DNA from: Thiobacter sp. AK1
GTDB lineage: Bacteria; Pseudomonadota; Gammaproteobacteria; Burkholderiales; Thiobacteraceae
Direction of reading: 5' to 3'
DNA length: 64,000 bases
NCBI RefSeq assembly: GCF_039822265.1
Contig: NZ_JBAJEX010000009.1
Location: 1-64,000 of the forward strand
Below, piece after piece: positions 10,437 through 64,000 of this stretch (positions are counted from its first letter, which is position 1; every line of letters begins with the position of its first letter). The position numbers were made by a program, and so were the translations under genes. The notes below the pieces were generated by a model. It did not search any database, had not been told where the DNA came from, and saw only the letters and a program-made list of their open reading frames with translations.

Positions 10437-10531
10437 GACATCTACCAAGGGCAAAGCCGCCGAAAGGCGGCGACGCAAAAGCACCGGCCTAACGGAACTT
10501 AGCTCCCATGGCAGCGGGCTTGCTGGGTGTC
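10437..10531 (+). ncRNA. cyclic-di-GMP-I (GEMM) riboswitch aptamer
   Basis: The core follows the GEMM-I pattern: GGGCAAA, a P2 hairpin GCCGCC-GAAA-GGCGGC (10456-10471) with GNRA tetraloop, GACGCAAA, then CCGGCCTAA, and the P3 arm TGGCAGCGGGCTTGCTGGG containing the tetraloop receptor side. GACA (10437-10440) can pair with TGTC (10528-10531) as P1. It lies about 100 nt upstream of the DUF1631 start. The stretch after it has no T-run, but holds the tandem repeat CCGGTGCTCTCC (10562-10573 and 10575-10586), whose CTCC could mask the GGAG ribosome site at 10617-10620. Translational control is therefore more likely than termination. Confidence 0.9.
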
Positions 10532-50031: not shown

Positions 50032-50075
50032 CTCGTAAGAACGAAGAACCAACCGCCACCCAAACGAGGATCATC

Positions 50076-50606
50076 ATGAGATGGAAGACCCTGCTACTTT
50101 TGGCCTGCTTTTTTCCCTGGCTGCTGGCCGCCTGCGCGACGGTCGAACGGTCCCCTGCGCCGACCCTTGAGCCCCAGGCGACGTGGGCGATCGCACCCTT
50201 CGCCAATTACACGGAAACACCGCTGGCGGGCAGCCGCGCCCAGGCGGTGGCCAGCCAGTGGATCGCCGCGCGCGTCTCGCCGCGGGTGGTGACCCCCCCA
50301 CCGGCATGGCTGGACGAGAGCCTGTTCGAGAAAGCCCAACCGCGCAGCCTCCAGGAACTGCTGCAATGGGCCAAAGGCCAGGGCGCGCGCTATCTGCTCA
50401 CCGGTAGTGTTTCGGAATGGCGCTACAAGGTGGGCGTGGATGGCGAGCCAGCGGTGGGCCTGACGGTGACCGTGTACGACGTCGCCAGTGGCGCGCGCCT
50501 GTATAGCGCCGTGGGTGGCAAGAGCGGCTACGCCCGCGAGTCAGTCGCGGCCGTGGCGCAAAAACTCACCGCAGAATTGCTCGCACCCTTGGCCACCGCA
50601 CCCTGA
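50076..50606 (+). CDS. pelC: PelC outer-membrane lipoprotein
   Basis: A 176-residue lipoprotein with signal peptide and lipobox LLAAC (Cys near residue 20). PelC forms a dodecameric ring under the PelB barrel that funnels the polymer. The middle contains the YLLTGSVSEW and VTVYDVASGARL strands typical of the family. ATG 50076 follows the pelB stop by 44 bp. Confidence 0.9.
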   Translation: MRWKTLLLLACFFPWLLAACATVERSPAPTLEPQATWAIAPFANYTETPLAGSRAQAVASQWIAARVSPRVVTPPPAWLDESLFEKAQPRSLQELLQWAKGQGARYLLTGSVSEWRYKVGVDGEPAVGLTVTVYDVASGARLYSAVGGKSGYARESVAAVAQKLTAELLAPLATAP

Positions 50607-50613
50607 AGTCCCC

Positions 50614-51909
50614 ATGTGGGAAGCCCTGAAAAACCGCTGGGCGGGGTTTGCCAGCCAACCCGCTGCCGCGGGGGAAACCCTGGCCGCGCCCCTGTTGGCC
50701 GTAGGTCTGGGGCTGTGGCTATCGCCGCTCGATCCCTTCTGGACACGCGCCGGTTTCCCCTGGGCGTGGCTTGCGCCGGTGCTGGTGAGTTTGCGCTATG
50801 GATCCTTGGCGGGCCTTGCGGCAAGCGGCGTGCTGGTGCTGGCCTGGCTACTTCTCGCCGCGGGAGGCTGGCCATTGGCCCCTTTTCCGCGCCTGTATTT
50901 CCTGGGCGGCTTCATCCTGGTCATGCTCACAGGAGAATTCACCAGCCTGTGGCTGGCGCGCGCGCGTCGCGCGGAAACCCTGCAGGCCTATCTAGACGAG
51001 CGTCTCGAACGTCTCACCGAACAGTACTATTTGCTGCGCCTATCCCATGACAAGTTGGAGCAGGAACTTCTCACGCGGCCCATGACTCTGCGTGACGCCC
51101 TGGGCCGCCTGGTGTCGGAGCAGAGCCCGGAGACGCACGCCCAAGCTCTGATGGACCTGCTGGCCCAGTACTGCCAACTGGAGCGCGCCGCCCTCTATGC
51201 CATTCATGATGGCGTGCTGGTGCTGGAGCCATTGGCGCGGGTGGGCGAACCTTTCCCGCTTGATCCCCTCGACCCCCTGGTGCGCCATGCTCTAGACAAC
51301 GAGCGTCTCGCCCATGTGCGGCACGTCACGGGTGAGACCGGCAGCCGCTACCGGGTAGTGGCGCCAGCCGCCGCGCAGGGCGAGGGCGTCACCCTGCTTT
51401 TGGTGGTGGAACGGCTCCCTTTCCTCGCGCTGCACGAGGAAACCCTGCAGAGTTTGGAACTGTTGCTCAACTATTATGCCGATGGCATGGCCATGACCCG
51501 CCTGGCTGCGCCCATATTGGCCCGCTATCCCGAATGCCCGCCATCCTTTGCTCTGGAACTCGAGCGGCTCTATCGCCTGGCCACGGTCAATGGCATCGCT
51601 TCCAGCCTCATGGTGTTCCGTTTCAGCACCGAGGCGGTGGCCGCTGACCTGCCCCACGTGCTAGCGCGCCAATCCCGCGGCTTGGATCTGGAATGGTTCG
51701 TGGCGGCGCCGATCCCGCGCCTTTTGGTGATCCTGCCGCTCACCGGCGAGGCGGGAGCGGAAGGCTACGCGCGGCGCATCGAACATTGGTTTGCCGAACG
51801 CGGCAGCGGCCGCCTGTCGGAGGTGGGTGTGACGCTGGAACGCTTCTGCCTCGACGCGCCGCCGCTAAAGGTGCTCGCTCGGGTGCTGGAGACGCAGGGT
51901 GCAAACTAA
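50614..51909 (+). CDS. pelD: PelD, cyclic-di-GMP receptor of the Pel machine
   Basis: A 431-residue inner-membrane protein with about four N-terminal helices (residues 20-110), a GAF domain (about 150-310) and a degenerate GGDEF domain. The I-site motif RxxD is seen as RGLD in RQSRGLDLEW, so cyclic-di-GMP binding is likely conserved. Binding switches on Pel synthesis through PelF. It starts 7 bp after pelC. Confidence 0.92.
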   Translation: MWEALKNRWAGFASQPAAAGETLAAPLLAVGLGLWLSPLDPFWTRAGFPWAWLAPVLVSLRYGSLAGLAASGVLVLAWLLLAAGGWPLAPFPRLYFLGGFILVMLTGEFTSLWLARARRAETLQAYLDERLERLTEQYYLLRLSHDKLEQELLTRPMTLRDALGRLVSEQSPETHAQALMDLLAQYCQLERAALYAIHDGVLVLEPLARVGEPFPLDPLDPLVRHALDNERLAHVRHVTGETGSRYRVVAPAAAQGEGVTLLLVVERLPFLALHEETLQSLELLLNYYADGMAMTRLAAPILARYPECPPSFALELERLYRLATVNGIASSLMVFRFSTEAVAADLPHVLARQSRGLDLEWFVAAPIPRLLVILPLTGEAGAEGYARRIEHWFAERGSGRLSEVGVTLERFCLDAPPLKVLARVLETQGAN

Positions 51910-52873
51910 GCTCCTCGCCTATGCCACCGTCCTGGAAGGGTCGGCCTGGGGTGGTGTCATCCTGGCCAGCAGCGACAGCGCCGGCTTCGTCGCCTTCTCT
52001 TTGCTGCACGCCGCAGCCGCGCTGGTGGCGAGCCTGGCGCTCACCACCCTGCTCGCGCCAGGTTCGCGCCGAGCACGACTGTCCCTGTTGCCCCTCGCCT
52101 TCGCCCTGCTGTTTGCACTGCCCCTGATCGGCATCCCCCTCATCCTGCTTTGGCTTCTCGGGGTGCGTCGGCTGCGCGCGCGGCACCGGGCCGCGACCTT
52201 TGCCGAGGTGAGCGTGCCACCGTTCGACATCCATCTCACCACGCGACCGCGGTTTCGTTTCACCGGTGCCGGTGGCATGCTGGCCAATGCCCGCGTGCCA
52301 GTGGATACGCGGGTGGGTGCTCTGCTGGCCTTATCACAGGTGCCCGGCCGCATTGCCACACCACTTTTGCGCCGCGTGCTCGCTTGCAGCAACGAGGATG
52401 TGCGCCTGCTCGCCTATGGTTTGCTGGACGCGCAGGAAAAACGTCTCAACGCCGCCATCCACGAAGCCCTAAGCCGTTACGCGGTAGGCGGGGCCGAGCG
52501 ACTGGCTGCCGCCGAACGGCTGACCGAGCTCTACTGGGAGCTGGTCTATCACGGCCTGGCCGTGGGCGATGTGCGCCGCCACGCCTTGGAAAGCTGCCTC
52601 GCTTACGCAGAGGAGGTGCTGGCCGTCCGACCCCATGCCGAGATGAAGCTCTACAAGGCGCGGGCGCTACACGCCCTGGGCCAGCTCGAGCAAGCCGCGG
52701 CGCTATACCGCGAGCTAGACGAGCTGCCGCCAAGCCGTGTGCTGCCCTATCTCGCGGAACTGGCTTACGACCAGGGTGACTACGCTACGGCCCGTCAGCT
52801 AATCGGCCGCCTCGACCGGCTCGCTACCGTGCCCCGCCTGGCAGCCGTGGTGCGTTACTGGAGCGCGGCATGA
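51899..52873 (+). CDS. pelE: PelE, membrane-TPR scaffold protein
   Basis: A 324-residue protein with two or three N-terminal membrane helices (ALLFALPLIGIPLILLWLLG) and a helical TPR-like cytosolic part (AEMKLYKARALHALGQLEQA). PelE links PelD, PelF and PelG. The start GTG 51899 overlaps the pelD end by 11 nt and its stop overlaps the pelF start. Confidence 0.88.
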   Translation: MQTKLLAYATVLEGSAWGGVILASSDSAGFVAFSLLHAAAALVASLALTTLLAPGSRRARLSLLPLAFALLFALPLIGIPLILLWLLGVRRLRARHRAATFAEVSVPPFDIHLTTRPRFRFTGAGGMLANARVPVDTRVGALLALSQVPGRIATPLLRRVLACSNEDVRLLAYGLLDAQEKRLNAAIHEALSRYAVGGAERLAAAERLTELYWELVYHGLAVGDVRRHALESCLAYAEEVLAVRPHAEMKLYKARALHALGQLEQAAALYRELDELPPSRVLPYLAELAYDQGDYATARQLIGRLDRLATVPRLAAVVRYWSAA

Positions 52874-54369
52874 GGGCAGACATTACCTTGCTCCTGGAAG
52901 GCACTTATCCCTTCGTGAGTGGAGGCGTGTCGAGTTGGGTGCACCAGATCATCCGCGCCTTCCCGGAGTGGCGTTTTCACCTCGTGTTCCTGGGCAGCCG
53001 ACGTGAAGATTACGGCCCCATGCGCTACGAGCTTCCCTCCAACGTGGCTGGGCTGGAAACCCACTACCTGTTTGAACCGGAAGCGCCCCCTCCCCTCGAA
53101 GTGTTGGAACCGTCGCCTCAGGTGATGGCCGAGGTCGAGGCCCTGCACACATCCTTTCTCGCCGGGGTCCCGCCAGCGCAGGCCATGGCGCGCATGGCCA
53201 GCATGTATCCCACCCTGCTACAAGGCGATCACCTCACCCGCGAGCATTTCTTGCGTTCCCGCGCGGCATGGGAGACGATTTGCAGCCGCTACAAGCGCTT
53301 CTGCACCGACCCCTCTTTCGTGGACTACTTCTGGACGGTGCGCATCATGCATGCGCCCCTGTGGAAACTCGCCGCCATCGCGCGGAACCTGCCTGCCAGC
53401 CGCGTCTATCACACCATCTCCACCGGTTACGCAGGATTTCTTGGCGCTTTGGCGAAAGCACACCACCGGCGGCCATTGATCCTGTCGGAGCATGGCATCT
53501 ACACCAAGGAGCGCAAGATCGATCTCCTCCAGGCGCAGTGGATCAAAGATAACCGCAATGTCTTCCAGCGCGATCCCACGGAAGTGTCCTACTACCGCTC
53601 CCTTTGGATCCGCTTCTTCGAATGGCTGGGGCGCGCCTGTTACGAGGCGGCCCAGCCCATCATTGCTCTATACGAGGCCAACCGTCAGCGTCAGATCCAG
53701 GACGGCGCCAACCCCGCCCGCACCCGCCTCATTCCCAATGGCGTCAATCTCGCCCGCTTTGCTCCGCTGCGTGCGCAACGCTCCACCCGCGTTCCACCCG
53801 TGCTGTGTTTGATCGGGCGAGTCGTACCCATCAAAGATGTGAAGACCTTCATCCGCGCCATGCGCCGCGTGGTGAACGTATTGCCGGAAGCGGAAGGTTG
53901 GATCGCGGGCCCCGAGGACGAGGACCCGGGCTACGCCCAGGAATGCCGCAACCTGGTGGCAAGCCTGGGCCTCACAGAAAAGGTACGCTTTCTTGGTTTC
54001 CAAAAAGTGGATGAGCTATTGCCCAAGATTGGACTCACGGTGCTCTCCTCCATCAGCGAGGCACTGCCGCTGGTGATCCTGGAAGGCTATGCGGCGGGCG
54101 TGCCCACGCTGGCCACCGATGTGGGTTCCTGCCGCCAGCTGGTGGAAGGGCTCACCCCTGAGGACCGCGCCCTGGGCCCGTCGGGCGCTATCGTCGGTAT
54201 CGCCGATCCCACCGCGCTGGCCGATGCCGCACTCGCCCTACTCACGGACGAGGCCCGCTGGCAGGCGGCCTCCCGTGCGGCCATCGCGCGCGTGGAAACT
54301 TACTATGCCGACCAGATGATGTTCGACGCCTACCGCAAAGTGTACAGCGAAGCCATGGAGCGGGGTTGA
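52870..54369 (+). CDS. pelF: PelF, GT4 glycosyltransferase polymerising Pel
   Basis: A 499-residue cytosolic GT-B glycosyltransferase using UDP-GalNAc. The N-terminal LLEGTYPFVSGGVSSWVHQ loop, the VLCLIGRVVPIKDVKTFI acceptor region and the E-x7-E motif (SSISEALPLVILE) are all present. ATG 52870 overlaps the pelE stop (ATGA), and its own stop overlaps the pelG start. Confidence 0.95.
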   Translation: MRADITLLLEGTYPFVSGGVSSWVHQIIRAFPEWRFHLVFLGSRREDYGPMRYELPSNVAGLETHYLFEPEAPPPLEVLEPSPQVMAEVEALHTSFLAGVPPAQAMARMASMYPTLLQGDHLTREHFLRSRAAWETICSRYKRFCTDPSFVDYFWTVRIMHAPLWKLAAIARNLPASRVYHTISTGYAGFLGALAKAHHRRPLILSEHGIYTKERKIDLLQAQWIKDNRNVFQRDPTEVSYYRSLWIRFFEWLGRACYEAAQPIIALYEANRQRQIQDGANPARTRLIPNGVNLARFAPLRAQRSTRVPPVLCLIGRVVPIKDVKTFIRAMRRVVNVLPEAEGWIAGPEDEDPGYAQECRNLVASLGLTEKVRFLGFQKVDELLPKIGLTVLSSISEALPLVILEGYAAGVPTLATDVGSCRQLVEGLTPEDRALGPSGAIVGIADPTALADAALALLTDEARWQAASRAAIARVETYYADQMMFDAYRKVYSEAMERG

Positions 54370-55739
54370 TGGCAGGCATCGGCTTCGAATTGCGCAAGCT
54401 GCTCGCCCGCAACACCCTCGGCGGTGTGCTGCAGGCCTACGCCTACGCGGGCATGATCGGCTCCGGTCCCTGGGTGTTGTCCATCATCGGCATTCTCCTG
54501 GTGGGTGTGCTAGCGAGCGGCATCGTGGTGCCGCCCAGTCTCGTCACCCAGTTCCAGACCACCGTCACCTACCTCATCGCCTTCAGTTTGATCCTCACCG
54601 GTGGCTTGCAGCTTGCCTTCACCCGCTACGTCTCCGACCGCCTGTTCGAGCAACGAGACGAGCTGGTGCTACCCAATCTGCACGGCGTGCTGGGGCTGAC
54701 GCTGGCTGGCGCAGCCGCCCTGTCCACCCTCGCCCTGGCCACTCTGTTCGAAGGCGTGAGTTTCGCCTACCGCGTCCTGGTGGTGATGGCCTTCACGGAA
54801 CTGGCCGGGGTATGGGTGTTGGCGGTGCTGCTGTCGGGACTGAAACGCTACAAGGCCATCGTGCTGTTGTTCGCCGTGGCCTACTCGCTGGTAGTGGGCC
54901 TGGCCTATGCCCTCGCTCCTTTCGGTCTGGAAGGACTGCTCGCTGCCTTTGCCTTGGGGCAACTGGTGTTGCTCGGCGGCATGTGGTGGACGGTGGCCCG
55001 GGCCTATCCCAGCCCGCGCAGCGTGAGCTACCACTGCCTACGTCGGCGCACCTTCTATCCCAGCCTGCTCGTCACTGGCACCCTCTACAATCTCGCCGTA
55101 TGGGCAGACAAGTTTCTATTCTGGGCTTGGCCAGAGACCTCGGAGCCGGTGATCGGCCCGCTGCGCGGCTCCCTCATCTACGATCTACCGGTGTTCCTCG
55201 CTTATCTTTCCATCGTGCCAGGAATGGCGGTATTCCTCGTGCGCATCGAAACCGATTTCGCGGAGTATTACGACAAGTTCTTCACCGCCGTCCGCGAGGG
55301 CGCCTCGCTGGAATACATCCAGGACATGCGAGACGAAATGGTCTATGCCGTGCGGCAGGGATTGGGGGAAATCGCCAAGATCCAGTTCATCGCCGTGCTG
55401 GCCACCTTCGTGGCCGGCCCAAGCCTGCTCGCACTGCTCGGCATATCCGGGTTATATCTACCCTTGCTGCAGATTCAAGTAGTGGGCGCAAGCCTGCAAG
55501 TCATGTTGCTGGCCATCCTCAACGTCCTGTTCTATCTCGATCGCCGACGCATCGTGGTGGCCCTGACTGCGATCTTCCTTCTGGCCAATACCCTTTTCAC
55601 CGTACTTACCCTCAAGCTGGGTGCCCCCTTCTACGGCTACGGCTTCGCCATCGCGCTGCTGACCACCGTCGCCCTCGGCCTCATCCTCCTCGACCGTAAG
55701 CTCGACCGGCTCGAATACGAGACTTTCATGTTCCAGTGA
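54369..55739 (+). CDS. pelG: PelG, Wzx-like membrane transporter
   Basis: A 456-residue integral membrane protein with about 12 helices, a member of the MOP flippase superfamily. It begins MAGIGFELRKLL, the standard PelG start, with ATG 54369 overlapping the pelF stop (TGATG). It moves Pel across the inner membrane with PelD, PelE and PelF. A strong terminator follows. Confidence 0.94.
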   Translation: MAGIGFELRKLLARNTLGGVLQAYAYAGMIGSGPWVLSIIGILLVGVLASGIVVPPSLVTQFQTTVTYLIAFSLILTGGLQLAFTRYVSDRLFEQRDELVLPNLHGVLGLTLAGAAALSTLALATLFEGVSFAYRVLVVMAFTELAGVWVLAVLLSGLKRYKAIVLLFAVAYSLVVGLAYALAPFGLEGLLAAFALGQLVLLGGMWWTVARAYPSPRSVSYHCLRRRTFYPSLLVTGTLYNLAVWADKFLFWAWPETSEPVIGPLRGSLIYDLPVFLAYLSIVPGMAVFLVRIETDFAEYYDKFFTAVREGASLEYIQDMRDEMVYAVRQGLGEIAKIQFIAVLATFVAGPSLLALLGISGLYLPLLQIQVVGASLQVMLLAILNVLFYLDRRRIVVALTAIFLLANTLFTVLTLKLGAPFYGYGFAIALLTTVALGLILLDRKLDRLEYETFMFQ

Positions 55740-55796
55740 AGCAGCCTAGCCCGCCACACCAATCCCTGCGTATGTCTCGCGGGCACGCTGAAATGC

Positions 55797-55823
55797 AAAA
55801 TGGGGCCAATGGCCCCATTTTTT
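55797..55823 (+). terminator. terminator of the pel operon
   Basis: Stem AAAATGGGGCC / GGCCCCATTTT around an AAT loop (11 bp), with six T at 55818-55823. It is symmetrical and can act in both directions. Confidence 0.9.
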
Positions 55824-55826
55824 GAA

Positions 55827-55838
55827 TGGCGGAGAGGG
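55827..55838 (-). other. candidate attachment-site remnant (tRNA-Ser 3' end)
   Basis: TGGCGGAGAGGG is the complement of CCCTCTCCGCCA, the 3' end common in bacterial tRNA-Ser genes. No tRNA body is attached. It lies between the pel terminator and the integrase gene, where the left end of an integrated element is expected. Only 12 bp support this. Confidence 0.3.
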
Positions 55839-55962
55839 CGTCCGCACAATCATTATCCAAAGCGGTTTCTCACGGTCCATCTGTCAACCATAAGTGTATA
55901 ATCTATATCGCTATTTCTGTCTTGTATGGTCCTCTTACGATCTGCACAATCCGACCGTTACG

Positions 55963-55984
55963 GGTAAGACAAACGGTAAGACAA
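55963..55984 (+). repeat. GGTAAGACAA direct repeats before the integrase
   Basis: GGTAAGACAA occurs at 55963-55972 and 55975-55984, 12 bp apart. A third, inverted copy of the core GGTAAGAC lies just after the gene (57160-57167). They are possible integrase arm sites or operators. Confidence 0.4.
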
Positions 55985-55991
55985 CGCACCC

Positions 55992-57155
55992 ATGGGACGT
56001 ATCCATATCTTGACTGCGAGGCAAGTCGAAACACTCCCGGACGGCAATCACGCGGACGGTGGAAATCTGTTTCTTCGCGTCCGGGGCGGCAGCCGTGCCT
56101 GGGTATTCCGGTACAAGAGCAACGGCGTGGTCAGGGAGCTTGGCCTTGGAAGCGCCGTCAGCCGCAGCCTGGCTCAGGCCAGGAAGCTTGCCGCAGAGAT
56201 GCGGTTGCTCATAGCGAATGGCCAGGACCCCGCCTCGGCACTGGGCCGCGACAACCGCAGCGAGCATGTTCCGTCGTTCGCTGAGGTTGCGACCCTGGTC
56301 ATCGAATCTAAGCGTCAGGGATGGAAAAACGCCAAGCACGCGAGCCAATGGGAAAACACCCTGAGCACTTACGTGTTCCCCGTTTTCGGAGACAAGAAAG
56401 TTGATGAGGTGGACGTGCAAGACGTCCTGCGAGCATTGCAAAGCATCTGGACGGAGAAGCACGAGACGGCCAGCCGCGTACGACAGCGCATTGAAGCGAT
56501 CCTGGACGCCGCGTGCGCCGCCGGCTGGCGTCGCGGCGACAACCCAGCCCGTTGGCGGGGACACCTTCAGCATCTTCTGCCAGCGCTCAGCAAGAAATCG
56601 CTCGTACGCCACATGCCGGCGATCCCTTACGAGAACCTCCCCGCCTTTTGGCAGGAGCTTCAAGCCAAGTCCGGCATGGCCGCTCTGGCCCTGCGATTTC
56701 TGATCCTCACCGCCGCGCGAACTGGCGAGGTGCTGGGAGCAACGTGGGACGAAATTGACATGAGCAACGCCCTCTGGAGGATCCCTGCGCAACGCATGAA
56801 AACCAGGCGCGCCCACGAAGTGCCGCTATCTGACCTTGCCCTGGAGACGTTGCGCCGCACCCCCGTGATCGACGGCTGCCCATACGTGTTCCCAGGCGCA
56901 AGAGGCGGACAAATGTCCAACATGGCAATGCTTGAATTGCTGCGCGGTATGCGCCCTGGGATGACCGTGCACGGGTTCCGTTCCACATTCCGAGACTGGG
57001 CCGGGGACATGACCCATCATCCACGCGACGTTATCGAGGCCGCGCTGGCACACCAGCTTCAAGGCGTCGAGTCGGCTTACCGGCGCAAGACGGCGCTTGA
57101 GAAGCGCCGGTCACTCATGGCAGACTGGGCGCGCTACGTTGCCAGTGGTGTCTGA
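55992..57155 (+). CDS. tyrosine recombinase/integrase (P4-type)
   Basis: A 387-residue site-specific integrase. N-terminal arm-binding domain (TARQVETLPDGNHADGGNL), SAM-like core-binding domain, and catalytic domain with Arg in TAARTGEVLGATW, the H-x2-R box HGFRSTFRDW, His in AALAHQL and nucleophile Tyr in GVESAYRRKT. All catalytic residues are present, so it is likely active. It starts at ATG 55992 without a clear ribosome site. It marks the left end of a mobile element that carries the conjugation genes to the right. Confidence 0.93.
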   Translation: MGRIHILTARQVETLPDGNHADGGNLFLRVRGGSRAWVFRYKSNGVVRELGLGSAVSRSLAQARKLAAEMRLLIANGQDPASALGRDNRSEHVPSFAEVATLVIESKRQGWKNAKHASQWENTLSTYVFPVFGDKKVDEVDVQDVLRALQSIWTEKHETASRVRQRIEAILDAACAAGWRRGDNPARWRGHLQHLLPALSKKSLVRHMPAIPYENLPAFWQELQAKSGMAALALRFLILTAARTGEVLGATWDEIDMSNALWRIPAQRMKTRRAHEVPLSDLALETLRRTPVIDGCPYVFPGARGGQMSNMAMLELLRGMRPGMTVHGFRSTFRDWAGDMTHHPRDVIEAALAHQLQGVESAYRRKTALEKRRSLMADWARYVASGV

Positions 57156-57259
57156 AACGGTCTTACCAAGCCCGCCGTTCAGGGTTGGGAGTGGGCCACA
57201 CCACCCGAGCCCAGCGCTTTCCCGACTTTTTCTAGGTCCATCAGACCTCAGCGCGGGTA

Positions 57260-57289
57260 CTCCAGCCGTAGCCTGTGGATCGGCTGGAG
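57260..57289. repeat. subterminal hairpin beyond iscB 3' end
   Basis: CTCCAGCC / GGCTGGAG perfect 8-bp dyad with a 14-nt loop, 18 bp past the iscB stop. No T-run on either strand. IS200/IS605-type elements carry such hairpins near their right end, so this may mark the end of the iscB element. Confidence 0.4.
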
Positions 57290-57306
57290 CGGAAGCGCCG
57301 CCTCCT

Positions 57307-58584
57307 TTACGCATACGCATATCCGTCTGCCTTTTGTATAACGGTCAGATATTTCGGATGGGCTTCGGCTTTGCGGCTCGGCCCGATCACCAAGAAAGAC
57401 GGCCGGAAGCGGATGGCCACCCGTCCCACAAAAGCCGGCAGTCCTGGTTTTGCGCACCGCACCAGATCTCCGGTCTGAAATCCCAGATACGACTTGCCCC
57501 CGGCCTTATGCCCAACCGGGAAGCCGTGGCGGTTCAATCGCGCCCGTTGCCGCTCGCCGTGGCCGGCCGCCTTTGCCTGTAACGGCGGCATCGCCGGCTC
57601 GAGCCGGACACCGGTCCCCGATTCGCCCACACAGGCCGCGTCGATCCAGTGCGCCTTGGGATAGCCTAGCCGGGCCCGATTCCACTTCGTCCGTCCGCCG
57701 GTGCCGACCTCGACAGCGAGGCCCGTAGCCTGGAGCCGTTCCCAGAGCGCCCAGCGGGTGCTGTTGACGGCAGCAGCGTCTTTCAGCGGAGCCTTGCGCT
57801 GGGCCTCGATGCGCGCCAGACGCTTTGGGTCGTGCGCCAGGAAGTCGGCCACGTCCCGATTGCCCTTCTTCTGGTTGCAGGGAACGCAGGCCAGCGTGAG
57901 ATTCGATACGCGGTCCGAGCCGCCCAGACTTCGGGGATGGATGTGGTCGATCGTGAGTGGCACGTTCTCCTTGCCGCAGTAGGCGCAGCGCCGTCCCCAC
58001 TTCTCCAACAGGTATTCGCGCACCTCGTAGCCGAAGAGCGTGCCCTGCTGGTATTCGACCCCGGAAATCTCCGGGTTCTGGAGCTTCTGGGTATCGAAGC
58101 GGTGGAGCATCGTCGAGACACCCTTCACCGGCGTCCAACGGCGCAGCCGTTCCACCCAGGTCATCGCGGTATCGACCCGGTGTTGCAGGCTGGGCGCGAG
58201 CCAGCCAACGTGGCGCCGACGGTTGTCGAAACGCGGGGCGCGGTAGCGCAGTTTCGACCGCCGAAAGCGTCGATGCGCCCGGCGCTGCTCCAGAGCCTTA
58301 CGGATGGCCGCGCCACGGTGCTGGAGTTCGGCGGCCCAGAGAACTGTCTGGCCCCGGCGGGCGCATTCGGCCACAACAGCGAGACCCGTGACTTTGCTCC
58401 CTGGGGCGATCTTCAGGCGAGTCTCCTGCACGGTGCCGCACTCCCGGTCCTTCAGGATGACGGCGAAGGGATAGCGGCGAAACACCGCCGCCTTGCCCCG
58501 GCGGAGCAACTGCCTGGCCCTGGCCGGATGGCAGGGCATCAGCGGTCGCCGGTTTTTGTCGAGTACCAGGACCCGGTTGTGCAT
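57307..58584 (-). CDS. iscB: IscB RNA-guided HNH/RuvC nuclease with inactivated RuvC
   Basis: A 425-residue IscB, ancestor-type relative of Cas9. PLMP domain (RRPLMPCHPARARQLLRRG), bridge helix (LEQRRAHRRFRRSKLR), split RuvC, HNH with Zn Cys200/203/233/236 and site IDHI (D213-H214), N228 and N237, and a C-terminal target-adjacent domain (GFQTGDLVR). RuvC-I reads KIAPGSKVTG with Ala60 where the family has catalytic Asp; RuvC-II reads TMLHRFDTQ with Met159 where it has Glu; RuvC-III HWIDAA (D315) remains. It should therefore nick only by HNH or only bind. Start ATG 58584, SD AAGGAGT. No tnpA is adjacent. Confidence 0.93.
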   Translation of the reverse strand: MHNRVLVLDKNRRPLMPCHPARARQLLRRGKAAVFRRYPFAVILKDRECGTVQETRLKIAPGSKVTGLAVVAECARRGQTVLWAAELQHRGAAIRKALEQRRAHRRFRRSKLRYRAPRFDNRRRHVGWLAPSLQHRVDTAMTWVERLRRWTPVKGVSTMLHRFDTQKLQNPEISGVEYQQGTLFGYEVREYLLEKWGRRCAYCGKENVPLTIDHIHPRSLGGSDRVSNLTLACVPCNQKKGNRDVADFLAHDPKRLARIEAQRKAPLKDAAAVNSTRWALWERLQATGLAVEVGTGGRTKWNRARLGYPKAHWIDAACVGESGTGVRLEPAMPPLQAKAAGHGERQRARLNRHGFPVGHKAGGKSYLGFQTGDLVRCAKPGLPAFVGRVAIRFRPSFLVIGPSRKAEAHPKYLTVIQKADGYAYA

Positions 58585-58815
58585 TGGACTACTCCTTTCC
58601 TTCTCGGCTTGCGCCGGTAATGTGCGCCTCGGCAAGGTTGGCAAGGCTTGTCGGGAGACGGACACCGCTTGCATCACTCCCAGCTCGCTTTTAATCCGCC
58701 TCGACAGAGCCCGAAACTGGCACACGCATTTCGGGGTGTCTTGGCCTTGCCAACGTAGCCCCGATACTCCGGGACTGAGCCTGGTCAACCCAGAGCCAGC
58801 AAGTTGCCTCACAAG
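58585..58815 (-). ncRNA. probable omega RNA of IscB
   Basis: The gene-free leader upstream of iscB can fold strongly. GTTGGCAAGGC (58754-58744) pairs perfectly over 11 bp with GCCTTGCCAAC (58647-58637). Nested inside are GACACC/GGTGTC (58740-58735 with 58666-58661) and a hairpin CCCGAAA/TTTCGGG (58735-58729 with 58716-58710). IscB omega RNAs lie 5' of the gene with the guide at their 5' end. The guide would then come from about 58815-58840, beside the end of the conjugation gene. The exact 5' boundary is not fixed. Confidence 0.6.
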
Positions 58816-58838
58816 CTCCGCCTATGACCCGTCAGGGT

Positions 58839-59222
58839 TTAGGGGGAGTGGTTGACCCCTTCCGTTGGCGGGCTGCCATCCCGGCACAGGTTCAGCTCAT
58901 AGTTGACGGCGAACTCGACCAGCTTCCCGTCTTTCGTGGGCACGTTCGCCTGCGTCAGTCGCACATTGAGCCGTTTGCACCCCTCCTGCTTGAAGCTCTT
59001 GATGGTGGTCACCTCTGCCATGACCGGCGCGCTCGATTTGGTCGTCTCCCGGAATTTGTCCGCGATCGGGCCGACGATCTCGCCCTGGGCGCGTCCGTCC
59101 GGAGCGTCGATGGCTTGCAGGAGCAACGGCTTGGCGCTGGTGTATTCGGCGGCGTGCGCGGAACCTGCGAGACAGATGGCGGCCGCCAAAGCCACCGCTT
59201 TTTGGCGCCTGTTACTGAACAC
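58839..59222 (-). CDS. exported small protein of the conjugation cluster
   Basis: A 127-residue protein with signal peptide (AVALAAAICLAGSAHAA) and two Cys (GCKRL, NLCRD) that may form a disulfide. Family not recognised. GTG 59222 overlaps the end of the upstream gene by 11 nt, so it belongs to the same operon. The last residues (TEGVNHSP) lie next to the iscB element's upstream edge, so the C-terminus could have been changed by its insertion. Confidence 0.7.
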   Translation of the reverse strand: MFSNRRQKAVALAAAICLAGSAHAAEYTSAKPLLLQAIDAPDGRAQGEIVGPIADKFRETTKSSAPVMAEVTTIKSFKQEGCKRLNVRLTQANVPTKDGKLVEFAVNYELNLCRDGSPPTEGVNHSP

Positions 59223-60087
59223 CGCTGGCTCCTTCTTCGTTCGACGTGTTTGCGCTGCTCGCTGCTGCCGTGGCTTTCTTTTTCTCTTCCTGCTCTTTCA
59301 ATTGGTTTTCCTGTTGCGGCGTTGGAATTACTTGCGCACTCCGTTCAAATCTCACGGCGGCAACGGTAGCGCTTCCGCTGTCATCTTTTTTGATGCCATT
59401 AACGAGCCCATCCAGCACGGCGTCCATAGCAGCATCGATCAGCGCTTCTGGTGTTTCAGGTGTATTGGCAGCAGAAATGACGGTAAAGGCTCTTTTGTTG
59501 TGGTCATCCGCAAAGACCCGCACATGTGCATTTGCTACGCCCGGCACTCGCTTTCCATCGTCGATGGCTTTGCCAATAATCGATGCAATGATGTTTCCGA
59601 CAATTGCAACGACTACCCCCTCACCGTAAGAAGACACCCCACCAAACGAGTTAGCGGCTTGCAGTAGGTTGCTCGTTTCGCCAGCGGAAAGACCACGAGG
59701 AGAAGTCTTGTTCACATCCTTACTGGACAAATCAGACTGCGCTTTGATTGCTGGCGCTATTGGTGGGAGGCCGACACCGTATGCTTCATTAGAATATACA
59801 TAGCTCGCCTTACCGTCTTTTGGAATTGTAATTCCGCTTTCCAAAACAAGCGTGGATTGCGCTGAAGCTTTCTTGTCAACTACCACATAGCCATTTTTCA
59901 TCAGACCTTGTGTGAGCCTGTTATACATCGCGTCGTTACATACCGGGCATTTCACCCATACCGCACCTTTCTTTGATAGCGATTGAATGTTCTCGTGTAC
60001 TCCATGGTACACAGTCAGCACTTCTGCATGCGATGGCGCAATGACCACCATAGCAACGAACGCCAGCAACGAGCGCAGATCTTTCAC
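59212..60087 (-). CDS. exported protein of unknown function, possibly TraT-like
   Basis: A 291-residue protein with signal peptide (SLLAFVAMVVIAPSHA), a CPVC motif, a Gly/Ile-rich membrane-like segment (EGVVVAIVGNIIASIIGKAI) and an Ala/Glu-rich charged tail. The order of a strand-rich part, a hydrophobic segment and a second strand part recalls surface-exclusion TraT proteins, but there is no lipobox and the match is weak. GTG 60087 has GAAGGAGGG upstream and overlaps the stop of the small ribbon-helix-helix gene (GTGA). Confidence 0.7.
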   Translation of the reverse strand: MKDLRSLLAFVAMVVIAPSHAEVLTVYHGVHENIQSLSKKGAVWVKCPVCNDAMYNRLTQGLMKNGYVVVDKKASAQSTLVLESGITIPKDGKASYVYSNEAYGVGLPPIAPAIKAQSDLSSKDVNKTSPRGLSAGETSNLLQAANSFGGVSSYGEGVVVAIVGNIIASIIGKAIDDGKRVPGVANAHVRVFADDHNKRAFTVISAANTPETPEALIDAAMDAVLDGLVNGIKKDDSGSATVAAVRFERSAQVIPTPQQENQLKEQEEKKKATAAASSANTSNEEGASGVQ

Positions 60088-60233
60088 TTCAATCCCTCCT
60101 TCTTCGCCATTTCCCTTATCGCCATCTCGATGATGGACGCCTGGCTCACGCCCTTGGTGTCAGCCAGCAGCTTCAGCAGCTTGAGCGCGTCTTCCGAGAG
60201 GCGAAAGCTCGTTGGTTGTTTCATGGCGCTCAT
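60084..60233 (-). CDS. small ribbon-helix-helix (CopG-like) protein
   Basis: A 49-residue protein (46 if the second ATG at 60224 is used), MKQPTSFRLSEDALKLL then LADTKGVSQASIIEMAIRE. This is the beta-helix-helix plan of Arc/CopG repressors: a short polar strand with alternating residues and two helices. The stop overlaps the next gene start (GTGA). A perfect inverted repeat lies directly upstream, as expected for autoregulation. No Shine-Dalgarno is visible, so translation may be coupled or leaderless. Confidence 0.7.
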   Translation of the reverse strand: MSAMKQPTSFRLSEDALKLLKLLADTKGVSQASIIEMAIREMAKKEGLK

Positions 60234-60254
60234 TGTAGCGCAGTCCGCGCTACA
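60234..60254. promoter_or_regulatory. perfect operator-like dyad before the RHH gene
   Basis: TGTAGCGC-AGTCC-GCGCTACA, an 8-bp perfect inverted repeat with 5-bp spacer, ends at the base before ATG 60233. Size and symmetry fit a ribbon-helix-helix dimer-of-dimers site. It lies 17 bp from the traN-like stop and could also be read as an mRNA hairpin. Confidence 0.55.
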
Positions 60255-60271
60255 GCGCAAGGCCTATCTGC

Positions 60272-61969
60272 TTACTGGCTCCCGCGCTGGTAGTAGTTTT
60301 GCATCTTCTGCTGCACAACACCCTGGACGTTTTGCGTCATGCCCTGGAGATTTGGCATCCTGATGTTCGCCATGACTTCCGACATGAACTCGGAGAGATC
60401 GATCCTGGCAAAGTCGATTCTCTCGAACTCCGCCTGCGTAAAGCCAGCGCAGCTTGGGCCTTCCGCGCTTCCCCATCCCTTACCGATCTGCGCCCTGCCT
60501 TGCTCGTTGATGATCCGGGCGAGGCGGCTGTTGTAGCAGCAATATGACTTGGTCTTTTCAATGCAAATTTTGACGATGGGTAGTTTCTTTGAGCAATAAG
60601 TGCCCACCTCATGGCAGAGATTCTGCCCGCGACGCATGGCGAGGATTTGTTCATCCTGATCGCAGGAGAGCAAGTCCTGGATGACCATGATGGCAACCTG
60701 GATGGCAAATGAAGTTGGATCGAACGCGAAGTTAAAACCTCCAAAACTTCCAAGATTTATAACATCGAAGCCGAAATTTATCGTTTGCCCAAAGATTTGA
60801 AACCCTGGTGCAATCGCTCCTGTCGATACCGTTAGCCCATAAAGACTGAACGATGGTGAATAGGAACTCCACGATGGCGCACCAAACATGGCGCTCATGC
60901 CTTGCTGCAATAGTTCGGGGGCGTTATTGTATAGGGCGTCGTACACATACTTGCTGCCCGCGCTAAAGGCTTCCGACCCCACTTGCATACCAATCTGGAA
61001 GAGCAGATTGTTGCTATACGCACCCCCTCCCCCACTCTTCTTGCAGCAGTTGGCCAGGCCAAACAGCTTGATCTTGCATTGTGAGCCGAAGCCCTTGAAT
61101 AACTCCATCGAGTTCGGGTCCATGTAGGTGCCGGCTTCCCTCGCTGCCTCCATGAGAGCCATGGAGCGGGCGAAATCGGGATCGTTTTCATATCCCTTGT
61201 CGAAGCACTTCCCGTCCTGACAGAAAAGCTGCCCGGAGCAGTCCGTGACCGTGCTAGTCTTCGGTGGCGCGGACATGCACTTGTAGGTTTTCGTCTCGAA
61301 CGTGCATTGCCCGTTCACCATGTCCGCCGGATCGCACTGGGAGGATTCGAGCGTGCAGTTCGGGTTCGATGCGTAGCCATCGCACTCAGACGAGTCCGTC
61401 CTTCCCGTGAGGCAGGCGTATGTCTCCTGCTTTTTGTAACACCCGTCGGGGGCGACTTGGGCAGGATCGATGCCAGGGGGGAGCGAACTATCCGGCGTCG
61501 TCTGCACGCACCGACTTTCCGCCAGGGAGCAATTCGGATTTCCGCTCAGGCTCTGGCATTGCGACGTGTCGTAGTTGCTGGAGACCAGGGTGTACGTATC
61601 ATCGAGCCTGATCGTGTTCGCCGGCGTCGGCATCGATGGATCGTTGCAGCGCCAGGTCTGCGTGTATTTCATGCAGCCTGTGTTAAACAACGTGTCCATC
61701 TGGGCGCACTGGGAATTCGTCTGCCAACACTGCGGCTGGGCGTCTATGAAAGGCTGGCAGTAGTTGATGGCGTTATCGTCGATACAGGTGTACGTGTCCC
61801 GGACTTCCCAGCATCCGCCGACGTCTTGCAGCGTCACCGTGACCCCGGAGATGGTTTTCGCCGGGGTCGTATCGACGCATGACGAAGCTGTTTTTGTGCA
61901 GGTTGCGCCAAACGCGCCATTTGCCAACAGAAGCATCCAAGGCAGCAACAGGCGAATCGTTCTGATCAC
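60272..61969 (-). CDS. traN: TraN C-terminal protein (mating-pair stabilisation)
   Basis: A 565-residue Cys-rich exported protein with its own signal peptide (LLLPWMLLLANGAFGA). Its C-terminal half carries the F-type TraN signature: CKIKLFGLANCCKKSG, YCSKK...KSYCCYNSRLARIINEQGR and GWGSAEGPSCAGFT. The N-terminal part has repeated Cys blocks (CWEVRDTYTCIDD, CNDPS, CYKKQETYACL). GTG 61969 overlaps the stop of the preceding gene (GTGA) and has GGGAGGG upstream. F TraN is a single protein of about 600 residues; here its N-terminal region is the separate gene just upstream. Confidence 0.85.
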   Translation of the reverse strand: MIRTIRLLLPWMLLLANGAFGATCTKTASSCVDTTPAKTISGVTVTLQDVGGCWEVRDTYTCIDDNAINYCQPFIDAQPQCWQTNSQCAQMDTLFNTGCMKYTQTWRCNDPSMPTPANTIRLDDTYTLVSSNYDTSQCQSLSGNPNCSLAESRCVQTTPDSSLPPGIDPAQVAPDGCYKKQETYACLTGRTDSSECDGYASNPNCTLESSQCDPADMVNGQCTFETKTYKCMSAPPKTSTVTDCSGQLFCQDGKCFDKGYENDPDFARSMALMEAAREAGTYMDPNSMELFKGFGSQCKIKLFGLANCCKKSGGGGAYSNNLLFQIGMQVGSEAFSAGSKYVYDALYNNAPELLQQGMSAMFGAPSWSSYSPSFSLYGLTVSTGAIAPGFQIFGQTINFGFDVINLGSFGGFNFAFDPTSFAIQVAIMVIQDLLSCDQDEQILAMRRGQNLCHEVGTYCSKKLPIVKICIEKTKSYCCYNSRLARIINEQGRAQIGKGWGSAEGPSCAGFTQAEFERIDFARIDLSEFMSEVMANIRMPNLQGMTQNVQGVVQQKMQNYYQRGSQ

Positions 61970-63228
61970 TCTGCCCTCCCCTCCAAGGTGGCGCAGCCGT
62001 TCTGTGTTGACACGGCCAGGAAGACATACTCCGTCGCGCTGACCGCCCCTTGAATCACCGTGGGGCCGCTTGCGATGAGCCTGTATTGCGACGCATAGAC
62101 CGGGTAGTTGTTGTCCAGACAGGAGCCGTCCGGCTGCAACGTAAAGCCGCTTGGGCACCCGGCGCCAGGCGCTGTACCGTCACAGGCATACCCGACGATC
62201 CCTTCTGACGATACGATCTGTCTCAGATTCGTGCACTGAGCTTGGCCGCACTGGGACACGATTGTCGCGCGACCCAGGCCGTAGCCCCTCCCATTCAGCA
62301 AGATAGAAACGTAGTCGCAGGCCGAACTTACACTTGGATCATTCCAAATTGCGCAGATCGCCATCCAATAGTCGCCAAGATAGAACGGACAGTCGGGTCT
62401 TATCCCGACGATCCTCCTGTAATCAAGCGGGGCCGGCATGGTATCCACATACACGCCGTTGATCATCATCTTATTCATCCCGAGACTAAAGGCGTACCGA
62501 GAGTTCGACACGAACACATCGGTTGGTATGGTGCACCACGACCCGCCGATTTCCATGCAGCGGTCGCCCATCTTGAAACTATATGCACGCAAGACGTTGG
62601 CAAATTGCGTTTTGCTGCATTGCTGCGTTGAGTACGATTTCTGGGTCTGTTCACACTGGAAGTTCGCATCCGTATCGATGGTGATGACCCGACCCATCGT
62701 GCATTGCTGCTCCCCGATTTCCTTGATTGAGGAGCACGTTTCGGTGGTGTATTGCGCAGGCGTTGTTTCTGTGCGGGTCGTGCATTGCGTGCTCGAACCG
62801 CCAACATTCACCCCGAACTGCTGCGCGGCAGCTTCAGCGTTTTGGTTGATCGCCCTTGCCCTCGCGAACATCGGGTCGTGCTTGGTGATGTTGAATTGCG
62901 GCCTGATCTGTGGATTTCGGGCCAGGAAGTTCACCGCCTCGCATTCCTGCCGCTTGATGGGATCGGGGTCGGGTGTCGCCGTCGCGCAGGTCTGCATCTT
63001 CGTGACGCCAAAGCTCGCTGTCTGCCCTTGACCGCCAGCGAAATATCCGGCTTCAGGCGGGTTCGTGCCATAGCCCGGAATTTTGTCCTGCACCGCTCCG
63101 GAATTGATGTTTCCGTAGCTCGACACCGTCTTCCCGGCCGCAAAACCCTTGGCATCATTGAAGATGGATGTCTGGTCGGCGATGGCTGCGCCGGCCCAGA
63201 ACAGCATCAAAATCGCCACTGCACGCAT
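61966..63228 (-). CDS. TraN N-terminal-like exported protein
   Basis: A 420-residue protein with signal peptide (AVAILMLFWAGAAIA). The segment DKIPGYGTNPPEAGYFAGG corresponds to IPGYNANPDETKYYGG near the start of F-plasmid TraN, and Cys-rich blocks follow (CTTRTETTPAQYTTETC, CGQAQC). The C-terminal signature of TraN is absent and lies in the next gene. The ATG at 63228 overlaps the trbC stop (TAATG), so trbC and both traN parts form one transcript. It probably sits at the outer membrane with the second part. Confidence 0.78.
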   Translation of the reverse strand: MRAVAILMLFWAGAAIADQTSIFNDAKGFAAGKTVSSYGNINSGAVQDKIPGYGTNPPEAGYFAGGQGQTASFGVTKMQTCATATPDPDPIKRQECEAVNFLARNPQIRPQFNITKHDPMFARARAINQNAEAAAQQFGVNVGGSSTQCTTRTETTPAQYTTETCSSIKEIGEQQCTMGRVITIDTDANFQCEQTQKSYSTQQCSKTQFANVLRAYSFKMGDRCMEIGGSWCTIPTDVFVSNSRYAFSLGMNKMMINGVYVDTMPAPLDYRRIVGIRPDCPFYLGDYWMAICAIWNDPSVSSACDYVSILLNGRGYGLGRATIVSQCGQAQCTNLRQIVSSEGIVGYACDGTAPGAGCPSGFTLQPDGSCLDNNYPVYASQYRLIASGPTVIQGAVSATEYVFLAVSTQNGCATLEGRAE

Positions 63229-63962
63229 TAGTTGATCCCTCTGACGATCTTGCTGCGATAACCCCTAGCCTCCGCCGCCCAGGCTGGGCTCTTGCGCTCG
63301 ATGTAGTCGAGCGCGTAATCCAAAGACACGTCGCCTGACACCTTCACAAAGGTGTCGGTCTTGGCGCACCCGTTGTCGAGCACGTTGGATGCCTCGGACC
63401 GCGCCAGTACGACCGCCGGGACCCTGGTCACGCTGAACTGCTGGAATGCCGGCGGGTGGATGGCAACGGGGACATTTCGGTTGCCGATGATGGACTGGAT
63501 TTCCTCTCCCATCTTCATCATGGAGTCACCTTTCAGTCCGCGAAAAACAAGCGTCGCCCCTGCTCGCTCCGCCTGCTCTGCGGCGCGAACCAGCGCTTCG
63601 CGCGGCATGGACAGCGAGACGAACACCAAAAGGTCGGCCTTGCCGCCGCCTTGCGCTGGCTGCTGACCAAGATGCCGATACTTCTCCGCAATGCTGGCGA
63701 TGTCTGGTGAGGGCGCCGCCGGTTTCGGGATGGCGTCTACTTTCGGCACGGATGGGGAAGCGGCCTGATTCATGCCAGAGGACGGCACCCGCTCTAGCGC
63801 TTCTCGCGCTTTCTGTTGGGCTTTTGCTATATCCTCCGCTGTTGGCATGGGCACTGCCGCCGCCCTCTGTTCGCGCAAAAAGGGCTCCTGCGCTAGCGTC
63901 GCGCCCGACGCCAGCGACAGGAACACGAGGGGGAGGATGACTTGGAATACTCGTAATCGCAT
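63228..63962 (-). CDS. trbC: TrbC, F-type pilus assembly protein
   Basis: A 244-residue periplasmic protein with signal peptide (VILPLVFLSLASGATLA) and the TrbC core LLVFVSLSMPREALVRAAEQ, followed by LVFRGLKGDS and VPVAIHPPAFQQFSVTRVPA, a thioredoxin-like fold without CxxC. It works in F-type (type IV secretion) pilus assembly. ATG 63962 is used, with GGTGG upstream. It is followed by the traN pair, in the F-plasmid order traU-trbC-traN. Confidence 0.9.
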   Translation of the reverse strand: MRLRVFQVILPLVFLSLASGATLAQEPFLREQRAAAVPMPTAEDIAKAQQKAREALERVPSSGMNQAASPSVPKVDAIPKPAAPSPDIASIAEKYRHLGQQPAQGGGKADLLVFVSLSMPREALVRAAEQAERAGATLVFRGLKGDSMMKMGEEIQSIIGNRNVPVAIHPPAFQQFSVTRVPAVVLARSEASNVLDNGCAKTDTFVKVSGDVSLDYALDYIERKSPAWAAEARGYRSKIVRGIN

Positions 63963-63963
63963 T

Positions 63964-64000
63964 TCAGCCACCAAACTTGACTGCGCCTTGGCAGCAATTG
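63964..64000 (-). CDS. C-terminal end of the gene upstream of trbC, probably traU
   Basis: Reading in from the window edge, the minus strand encodes ...NCCQGAVKFGG and stops at TGA 63966-63964, 1 bp before the trbC ATG. A paired-Cys C-terminus and position before trbC fit TraU in F-type clusters. Only 11 residues are visible. Confidence 0.4.
   Translation of the reverse strand, partial: NCCQGAVKFGG

Follow-up and report, generated by a model that had tools for sequence, protein, structure and literature searches.

IscB proteins (HEARO ORF, OMEGA endonucleases), the ancestors of Cas9, combine an RRXRR/PLMP region with RuvC and HNH nuclease parts and are preceded by an omega RNA whose guide equals the left flank of the insertion, with a further motif in the right flank. 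Natural loss of RuvC residues is known from TldR, a transposon-derived guided protein that is not known to have a second nuclease, and in TldR-like regulators the guide is conserved across members. TldR regulates flagellin expression (PMC13418256). In OgeuIscB the catalytic residues are D61, E193, H340 and D343 of RuvC and H247 of HNH, and the IscB HNH domain is considered to cleave the strand that pairs with the guide (PMC9640706). IsrB, the OMEGA nickase, is an RNA-guided, transposon-encoded protein with one nuclease (PMC9581776). A RuvC-inactive, HNH-active IscB beside an inactive Cas12 and a helix-turn-helix (HTH) protein has already been published, as has a phage Cas9 of that kind, and the authors suggest that this IscB is a nickase (PMC10910872). 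RuvC Asp-to-Ala variants of IscB/HEARO proteins (MG35-1 D59A, OrufIscB D61A) function in base editors, one of them being termed a putative nickase (PMC9755519, PMC13180657). Here we describe an IscB element in a stretch of 64,000 nucleotides from Thiobacter sp. AK1 (contig NZ_JBAJEX010000009.1, positions 1 to 64,000; hereafter the window), whose protein has Ala and Met in place of two RuvC catalytic acids, keeps its HNH site and is, we think, likely to be a guided nickase.

The window element shares with the described IscB systems the domain layout, omega RNA, guide and right-flank motif named for IscB above, and its protein differs from theirs in lacking both RuvC acids, in carrying a derived TMLH/TLLH motif and in being predicted to nick rather than to make a double-strand break. 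In the state of its two nucleases it resembles the Cas12-associated IscB. That protein lies in a Cas12/HTH locus (PMC10910872), whereas the members described here stand alone within the neighborhoods scanned, and each has its own guide. IsrB lacks HNH and works via RuvC; here HNH is present and the RuvC acids are lost, so that the opposite strand should be cut. The engineered variants carry the same Asp-to-Ala change but are laboratory mutants, whereas the window change is natural and the Glu is lost too. Unlike TldR, the group keeps HNH, and its guides differ among members. Its novelty is reduced by the published Cas12-linked case. Apart from that paper, our literature search recognized no free-standing RuvC-dead IscB family among the papers listed, though the original IscB survey and supplementary files, which lay outside that search, may contain such proteins; a search combining IscB and Acidithiobacillus found no paper.

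Catalytic residues of the window IscB and its relatives

The features of the window gene, all on the minus strand, are as follows.

57307..58584, minus: iscB coding sequence, 425 amino acids, an open frame with Pfam RRXRR and HNH matches and the NCBIfam equivalog guided_IscB
58405..58407, minus: codon 60, GCC (Ala), in KIAPGSKVTG, at the RuvC-I catalytic Asp (OgeuIscB D61)
58108..58110, minus: codon 159, ATG (Met), in STMLHRFDTQ, at the RuvC-II catalytic Glu (OgeuIscB E193)
57820..58149, minus: RuvC-II/HNH part, residues 146-255, common to the RuvC-dead group on different backbones
57820..58014, minus: HNH region, residues 191-255, with D213, H214, N228, N237 and four zinc cysteines intact
57640..57651, minus: RuvC-III, H312 to D315, His and Asp retained

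The protein is recognizably an IscB: it matches Pfam RRXRR at 231.9 bits together with HNH families and NCBIfam guided_IscB at 457.2 bits (cut-off 175), and its AlphaFold2 model (mean predicted local distance difference test score 84.9) has IscB 8csz as its top PDB match (E 1.2e-25). In a HMMER alignment with OgeuIscB, A60 faces the Asp of ‘gidpg’ and M159, which lies in the derived motif TMLH (residues 158-161), faces the Glu of ‘vvlelnrf’. The window protein thus lacks the catalytic Asp and Glu of RuvC-I and RuvC-II; H312 and D315 are present, as are the HNH catalytic residues and the zinc cysteines at 200, 203, 233 and 236. These two substitutions stand almost alone. A first alignment held 87 proteins, and 81 of the 86 relatives (those with >300 bits) were used to define conserved columns at >=93%; the window IscB deviates at 2 of the 84, exactly 60 and 159, both RuvC acids. 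This is more than chance would give, a particular pair of columns being 1 among 3486 possible. Measured against the 97 full-length relatives that lack the derived RuvC-II motif, the window IscB departs at three of 88 conserved columns: D60A, E159M and G383P. The nearest live relatives are those of A. caldus pTcM1 (76% identity) and Methylacidimicrobium (74%). An assembly or sequencing error behind Met159 is rejected because the RuvC-II change recurs across eight genomes. An earlier note on this DNA, made from the letters alone, had placed Ala60 and Met159 at the RuvC catalytic Asp and Glu and had called the HNH site (D213, H214, N228, N237) and zinc cysteines intact; codons, OgeuIscB alignment and conserved columns bear out the first statement and the alignment of relatives the second, and the alignment does not place the catalytic residues elsewhere, an outcome which that note had named as refuting it.

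The relatives came from several searches: the genome_contigs scan, in which 80 of 82 loci were kept; plasmids, with 90 matching records from which 17 iscB regions were taken; viral contigs, with 41 loci; and whole-genome searches that added more. From 151 proteins at the first filter, 120 remained after identical cores were removed and 106 were full-length (48 from genome_contigs, 29 from whole-genome searches, 17 from plasmids, 11 viral and the window’s own). The RuvC-II sequence S-T-[M/L]-L-H-R-F-D-T-Q occurs in ten genes of eight genomes, nine full-length and one truncated: the window; L138 (G325); L165 (G1024); L170 (G1032); L171 (G1037); L172 and L178 (G1030); L173 and the truncated L181 (G1026); and L174 (G1034). 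A T-x-L-H-R-F-D-T-Q codon pattern run on 168 loci matched L138 and L165 besides the window’s own copies, and the motif pattern had no exact match in viral_contigs. Among 31 genomes searched in the order of G1024 (the genome of L018, Acidithiobacillus marinus), 10 have an IscB at E <= 1e-60, and the motif is found in six of these. Glu-keeping IscBs coexist with the motif in three of the eight genomes (G1024, G1030, G1032). L181 (G1026:C105) is a second RuvC-dead copy beside L173 in one genome; it ends at a contig edge.

All ten members have Met or Leu at residue 159 and retain D213, H214, N228, N237 and the four HNH cysteines. Of the nine with an N-terminus, five carry Ala at residue 60, one carries Thr and three keep Asp. 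H161 is found in 9/9 full-length members and 0/97 other full-length IscBs; D315 is changed (to Glu) among the ten only in L181. Of the 106 full-length proteins, 10 lack D60 and 10 lack E159, but every one retains H214, N228, N237, H312 and D315; no loss of the HNH histidine was seen in these 106, a sample found partly with HNH/RuvC-III patterns. D60 is missing from 6/9 motif proteins and 4/97 others (Fisher p 9e-6, kinship ignored), as expected if RuvC were already dead. RuvC loss recurs among IscBs: single losses among the 97 are L108 D60A, L152 D60G, L175/L176 D60H and L036 E159K, and the more distant IscB L071 has D60G.

Selection was gauged by the pairwise Nei-Gojobori ratio of nonsynonymous to synonymous change (dN/dS). 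Among L171, L172 and L178, all with A60 and M159, it is 0.16-0.19 over the whole gene and 0.09-0.14 over residues 146-255, at a synonymous distance of 0.33-0.53; the shared double loss presumably predates the split of the three. Judged by these ratios, such comparable double-loss members evolve under purifying selection. For the window and L138 the ratio is 0.18 with synonymous sites near saturation (dS 1.45), and a contrary detail is L173 against the truncated L181, with 0.34 overall and 0.61 in the RuvC-III part. At conserved columns other than 60 and 159 the nine members depart 1, 4, 1, 0, 1, 0, 0, 0 and 1 times (8 in total, mean 0.9); the remaining 97 IscBs, which take in more distant proteins, average 1.8. 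The earlier note had held that selection has kept the protein and had proposed dN/dS as a check, together with a search for the same losses in a group: both came out in its favor, the ratios being purifying and the RuvC-II change (ten genes) and Asp60 loss (six of nine) being shared. Its ‘predicted natural nickase’ is in this sense well supported by sequence, through group-wide RuvC loss, HNH retention and purifying selection.

The members do not share one backbone. Residues 146-255 are 76-93% identical among members, 73-83% identical to those of the live L096 and L016, and 65-76% identical to those of six Glu-keeping IscBs of the Acidithiobacillus order; given the 73-83% identity, this cassette probably came from an L096-like source. 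When the 110-residue part was compared with plasmids, one of 114 records among the matches listed exceeded 80% identity, and this was the live IscB of pTcM1. Toward their two ends the members track different live lineages: the termini of the window IscB group with L096/L016/L169, L138 and L181 show this affinity only at the C-terminus (L181 having no N-terminus), and the termini of the other seven group with live Acidithiobacillus copies. Three part-wise trees (41, 39 and 41 chosen rows out of 105) are in keeping with this: the state changes needed are two for residues 146-255 with the motif columns removed (9.1 in shuffles), five for the N-terminus (8.3) and four for the C-terminus (9.1). With 35 chosen rows, the N-terminal tree rejects a constraint that unites the members in a single clade (log-likelihood lower by 145; approximately unbiased test, p-AU 9e-7), which rules out a simple clade for the protein as a whole; the tree of the RuvC-II/HNH part, residues 146-255, does not reject it (p-AU 0.088). 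As this part sits in different IscB backbones, recombination appears to have moved it between them. Within its tree, branch support is only modest and the live L096 falls between motif members; recombination may have given L096 back a live motif, or else this tree does not fix where the group is rooted.

The element, its guide and its vacant site

The element around the gene consists of the following parts.

58617..58856, minus: omega RNA (HEARO, RF02033), full length 1-211, 119.4 bits
58857..58872, minus: guide region CCCGCCAACGGAAGGG, 16 nucleotides (length assumed), the left flank of the insertion
57242..58856, minus: whole element, 1615 bp, left end GTCAAC, right end ...GGTCTG, with a vacant site in L159 and L203
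57260..57289, minus: right-end hairpin CTCCAGCCG ... CGGCTGGAG, found by eye, similar in L096, L138 and L016
57236..57241, minus: presumed target-adjacent motif ATGGAC, the first bases of the right flank
58839..59222, minus: interrupted target gene, a conjugation-linked hypothetical
57179..57241, minus: severed 3' end of the target gene, MDLEKVGKALGSGGVAHSQP then stop; in L159, GMDLEQIGKALMR then stop

Judged from its sequence, the window copy is a complete element with omega RNA, guide and ends. The omega RNA lies upstream of the gene with a guide matching the flank and folds better than shuffled sequences (z -2.67); HEARO reaches the Rfam gathering score for eight of the nine full-length motif members, the exception being L171. 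The ends are defined by comparison with L159 (G029) and plasmid pSTJ2 of Sulfuricystis multivorans (L203), where CCCGCCGACGGAAGGG is followed directly by ATGGACTTGGAGCAG; in the window CCCGCCAACGGAAGGG is followed by the element and then by ATGGACCTAGAAAAA. The element therefore spans 57242-58856, and its guide has 1 mismatch in 16 against the vacant site. Through the insertion, a gene within a conjugative region that also carries TraN is separated from its final 20 codons.

Other copies agree with these ends. The D60H IscB element L175/L179 (G1042:C1) is present as two copies about 13.5 kb apart in different flanks, identical over 1699 bp through ...CTGATG and then divergent; they reflect recent movement with a probably impaired RuvC, and no Y1 transposase match was found in the G1042 genome. 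The right flank also has a paralogous copy in L205, which begins at ATGG, consistent with the element end. The right flank starts with ATGG or ATGC in five of the nine members (window, L138, L165, L170, L171); L172 has ATGG after TAAA, and L173, L174 and L178 have no ATG directly past the stop codon. Among other IscB copies ATG is seen in L096, L016, L169, L175 and L176 and absent in L166, L177 and L180. A tolerated vacant site was considered beside the L138 element, whose right flank has a 90% paralogous copy upstream; the guide mismatches there, so this is not a vacant target.

Predicted nicking and its alternatives

We consider it likely that the window IscB is RuvC-inactive and HNH-intact and acts as an omega-RNA-guided nickase of the guide-paired strand at its own vacant site, perhaps homing by means of the nick. 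The protein with its omega RNA would bind a vacant insertion site (the guide sequence followed by ATGGAC), and HNH would cut the guide-paired strand only; we infer the death of RuvC, the nick and its strand alike. Recombination prompted by the nick would then copy the element into vacant sites again, a form of homing that needs no double-strand break and would probably cost the host or conjugative carrier less. TnpB is not known to have an HNH domain, and its behavior on plasmids does not therefore decide the IscB case. TnpB has been proposed to retain its element via a double-strand break at the vacant site (PMC8612924) and to drive it through plasmids, an advantage that is gone once RuvC is inactivated (PMC11870625). 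A wider proposal, which we hold tentatively and at slightly less than an even chance, is that a mobile family of RNA-guided HNH-only nickases arose from IscB, its S-T-[M/L]-L-H cassette spreading between backbones by recombination and its members homing by nicking, often inside conjugative elements. If so, natural single-strand-cutting versions of Cas9’s ancestor may already exist, as the relatives with the same loss suggest; a RuvC-less IscB family under selection would show either that a guided nick suffices or that IscB has another job, and compact proteins apparently turned into nickases by nature would be useful for base editing.

Several observations weigh against the nickase. H312 and D315 do not drift (106/106 full-length proteins), though a dead RuvC should free both; a structural role could explain this, as could some remaining function of the pocket. 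The new motif TMLH/TLLH is fixed and could be a rebuilt site. The window’s genome holds two Y1 transposase matches only, both in 315-residue frames, and recent movement is seen for the D60H element and for no Glu-less one. Three of the six peptide patterns used in the genome_contigs and viral scans lie in HNH/RuvC-III, favoring sequences conserved there; the plasmid and whole-genome searches ran without these patterns.

The best-surviving alternative, still an unlikely one, is an RNA-guided binder that does not cut and that, in the manner of TldR, which derives from TnpB, blocks or represses its target. The earlier note had drawn this likeness to nuclease-dead TnpB regulators. In its favor, the RuvC loss parallels that of TldR, and dead copies persist with their omega RNA. 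The likeness is nevertheless the weaker part of that note. The nine guides differ, no pair being alike at more than 7 of 16 positions, so a guide conserved as in TldR-like regulators is absent among these members; each derives from its element’s own flank, as in mobile IscB. No further exact site for the window guide exists in the genome that carries it, and near-matches (<=3 mismatches, both strands) are no commoner than for a reversed control (55 against 64 sites). A domesticated regulator with a fixed target is thus unsupported, and the HNH catalytic and zinc residues stay intact in every member, although at least three lineages have lost D60.

Somewhat less probable again is a rebuilt RuvC pocket in which H161, H312 and D315 bind metal in a changed arrangement and the enzyme goes on cutting both strands. 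The fixation of H161 in nine members against its absence from 97 others, with H312 and D315 retained, speaks for such a site; the replacement of Asp60 by Ala or Thr in six of nine, and the magnesium ion near D61 and E193 in OgeuIscB (PMC9640706), speak against it. That the gene is a decaying pseudogene, its catalytic changes being the first steps of loss, is very improbable: in its favor, the window’s genome has a single IscB copy and no clear dedicated transposase, but the frame is open, other departures are few, dN/dS among double-loss members is low, the motif is common to eight genomes and omega RNA and ends are intact, and the group brings this reading close to refutation. Membership in the published Cas12-linked system is the least credible reading of all: the RuvC-dead, HNH-intact state is alike (PMC10910872), but no Cas12 occurs among seven neighboring proteins scanned with Pfam or five with PADLOC, no direct repeat of >=22 nucleotides within 120 nucleotides, and so no array-like repeat, occurs at 48000-64000, and the element stands alone inside a conjugation-linked gene.

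Neighborhood and mobilization

Two genes were identified next to the window element.

55992..57155, plus: tyrosine (phage-type) integrase beside the element
60272..62158, minus: TraN (PF06986), a component of F-type conjugation, likewise beside the element

Conjugation genes adjoin the window element (TraN), L178 (TraF, TraH, TraG_N), L165 (TraG_N) and L172 (TrbI), and a weak DotD match lies near L171; none was found near L138, L170, L173 or L174 among the one to four neighbors scanned for each. This context was counted for the RuvC-dead members. A search for Y1 transposase gave a match in six of nine genomes.

In one genome of the window’s own order, G028 (L002), 24 stretches match the IscB query with 36-52% identity; several are fragments, and together they represent the expansion of a distant lineage. 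TraN similarity in the window extends over 60272-63228 across two overlapping frames, with PF06986 in one and a TraN match below cut-off in the other; pSTJ2 has a similar pair of overlapping genes, so the overlap may be conserved and not a frameshift. Elsewhere, the window carries a c-di-GMP-I riboswitch at 10440-10527 and, at 52870-55739, PelG with a DUF3492 glycosyltransferase.
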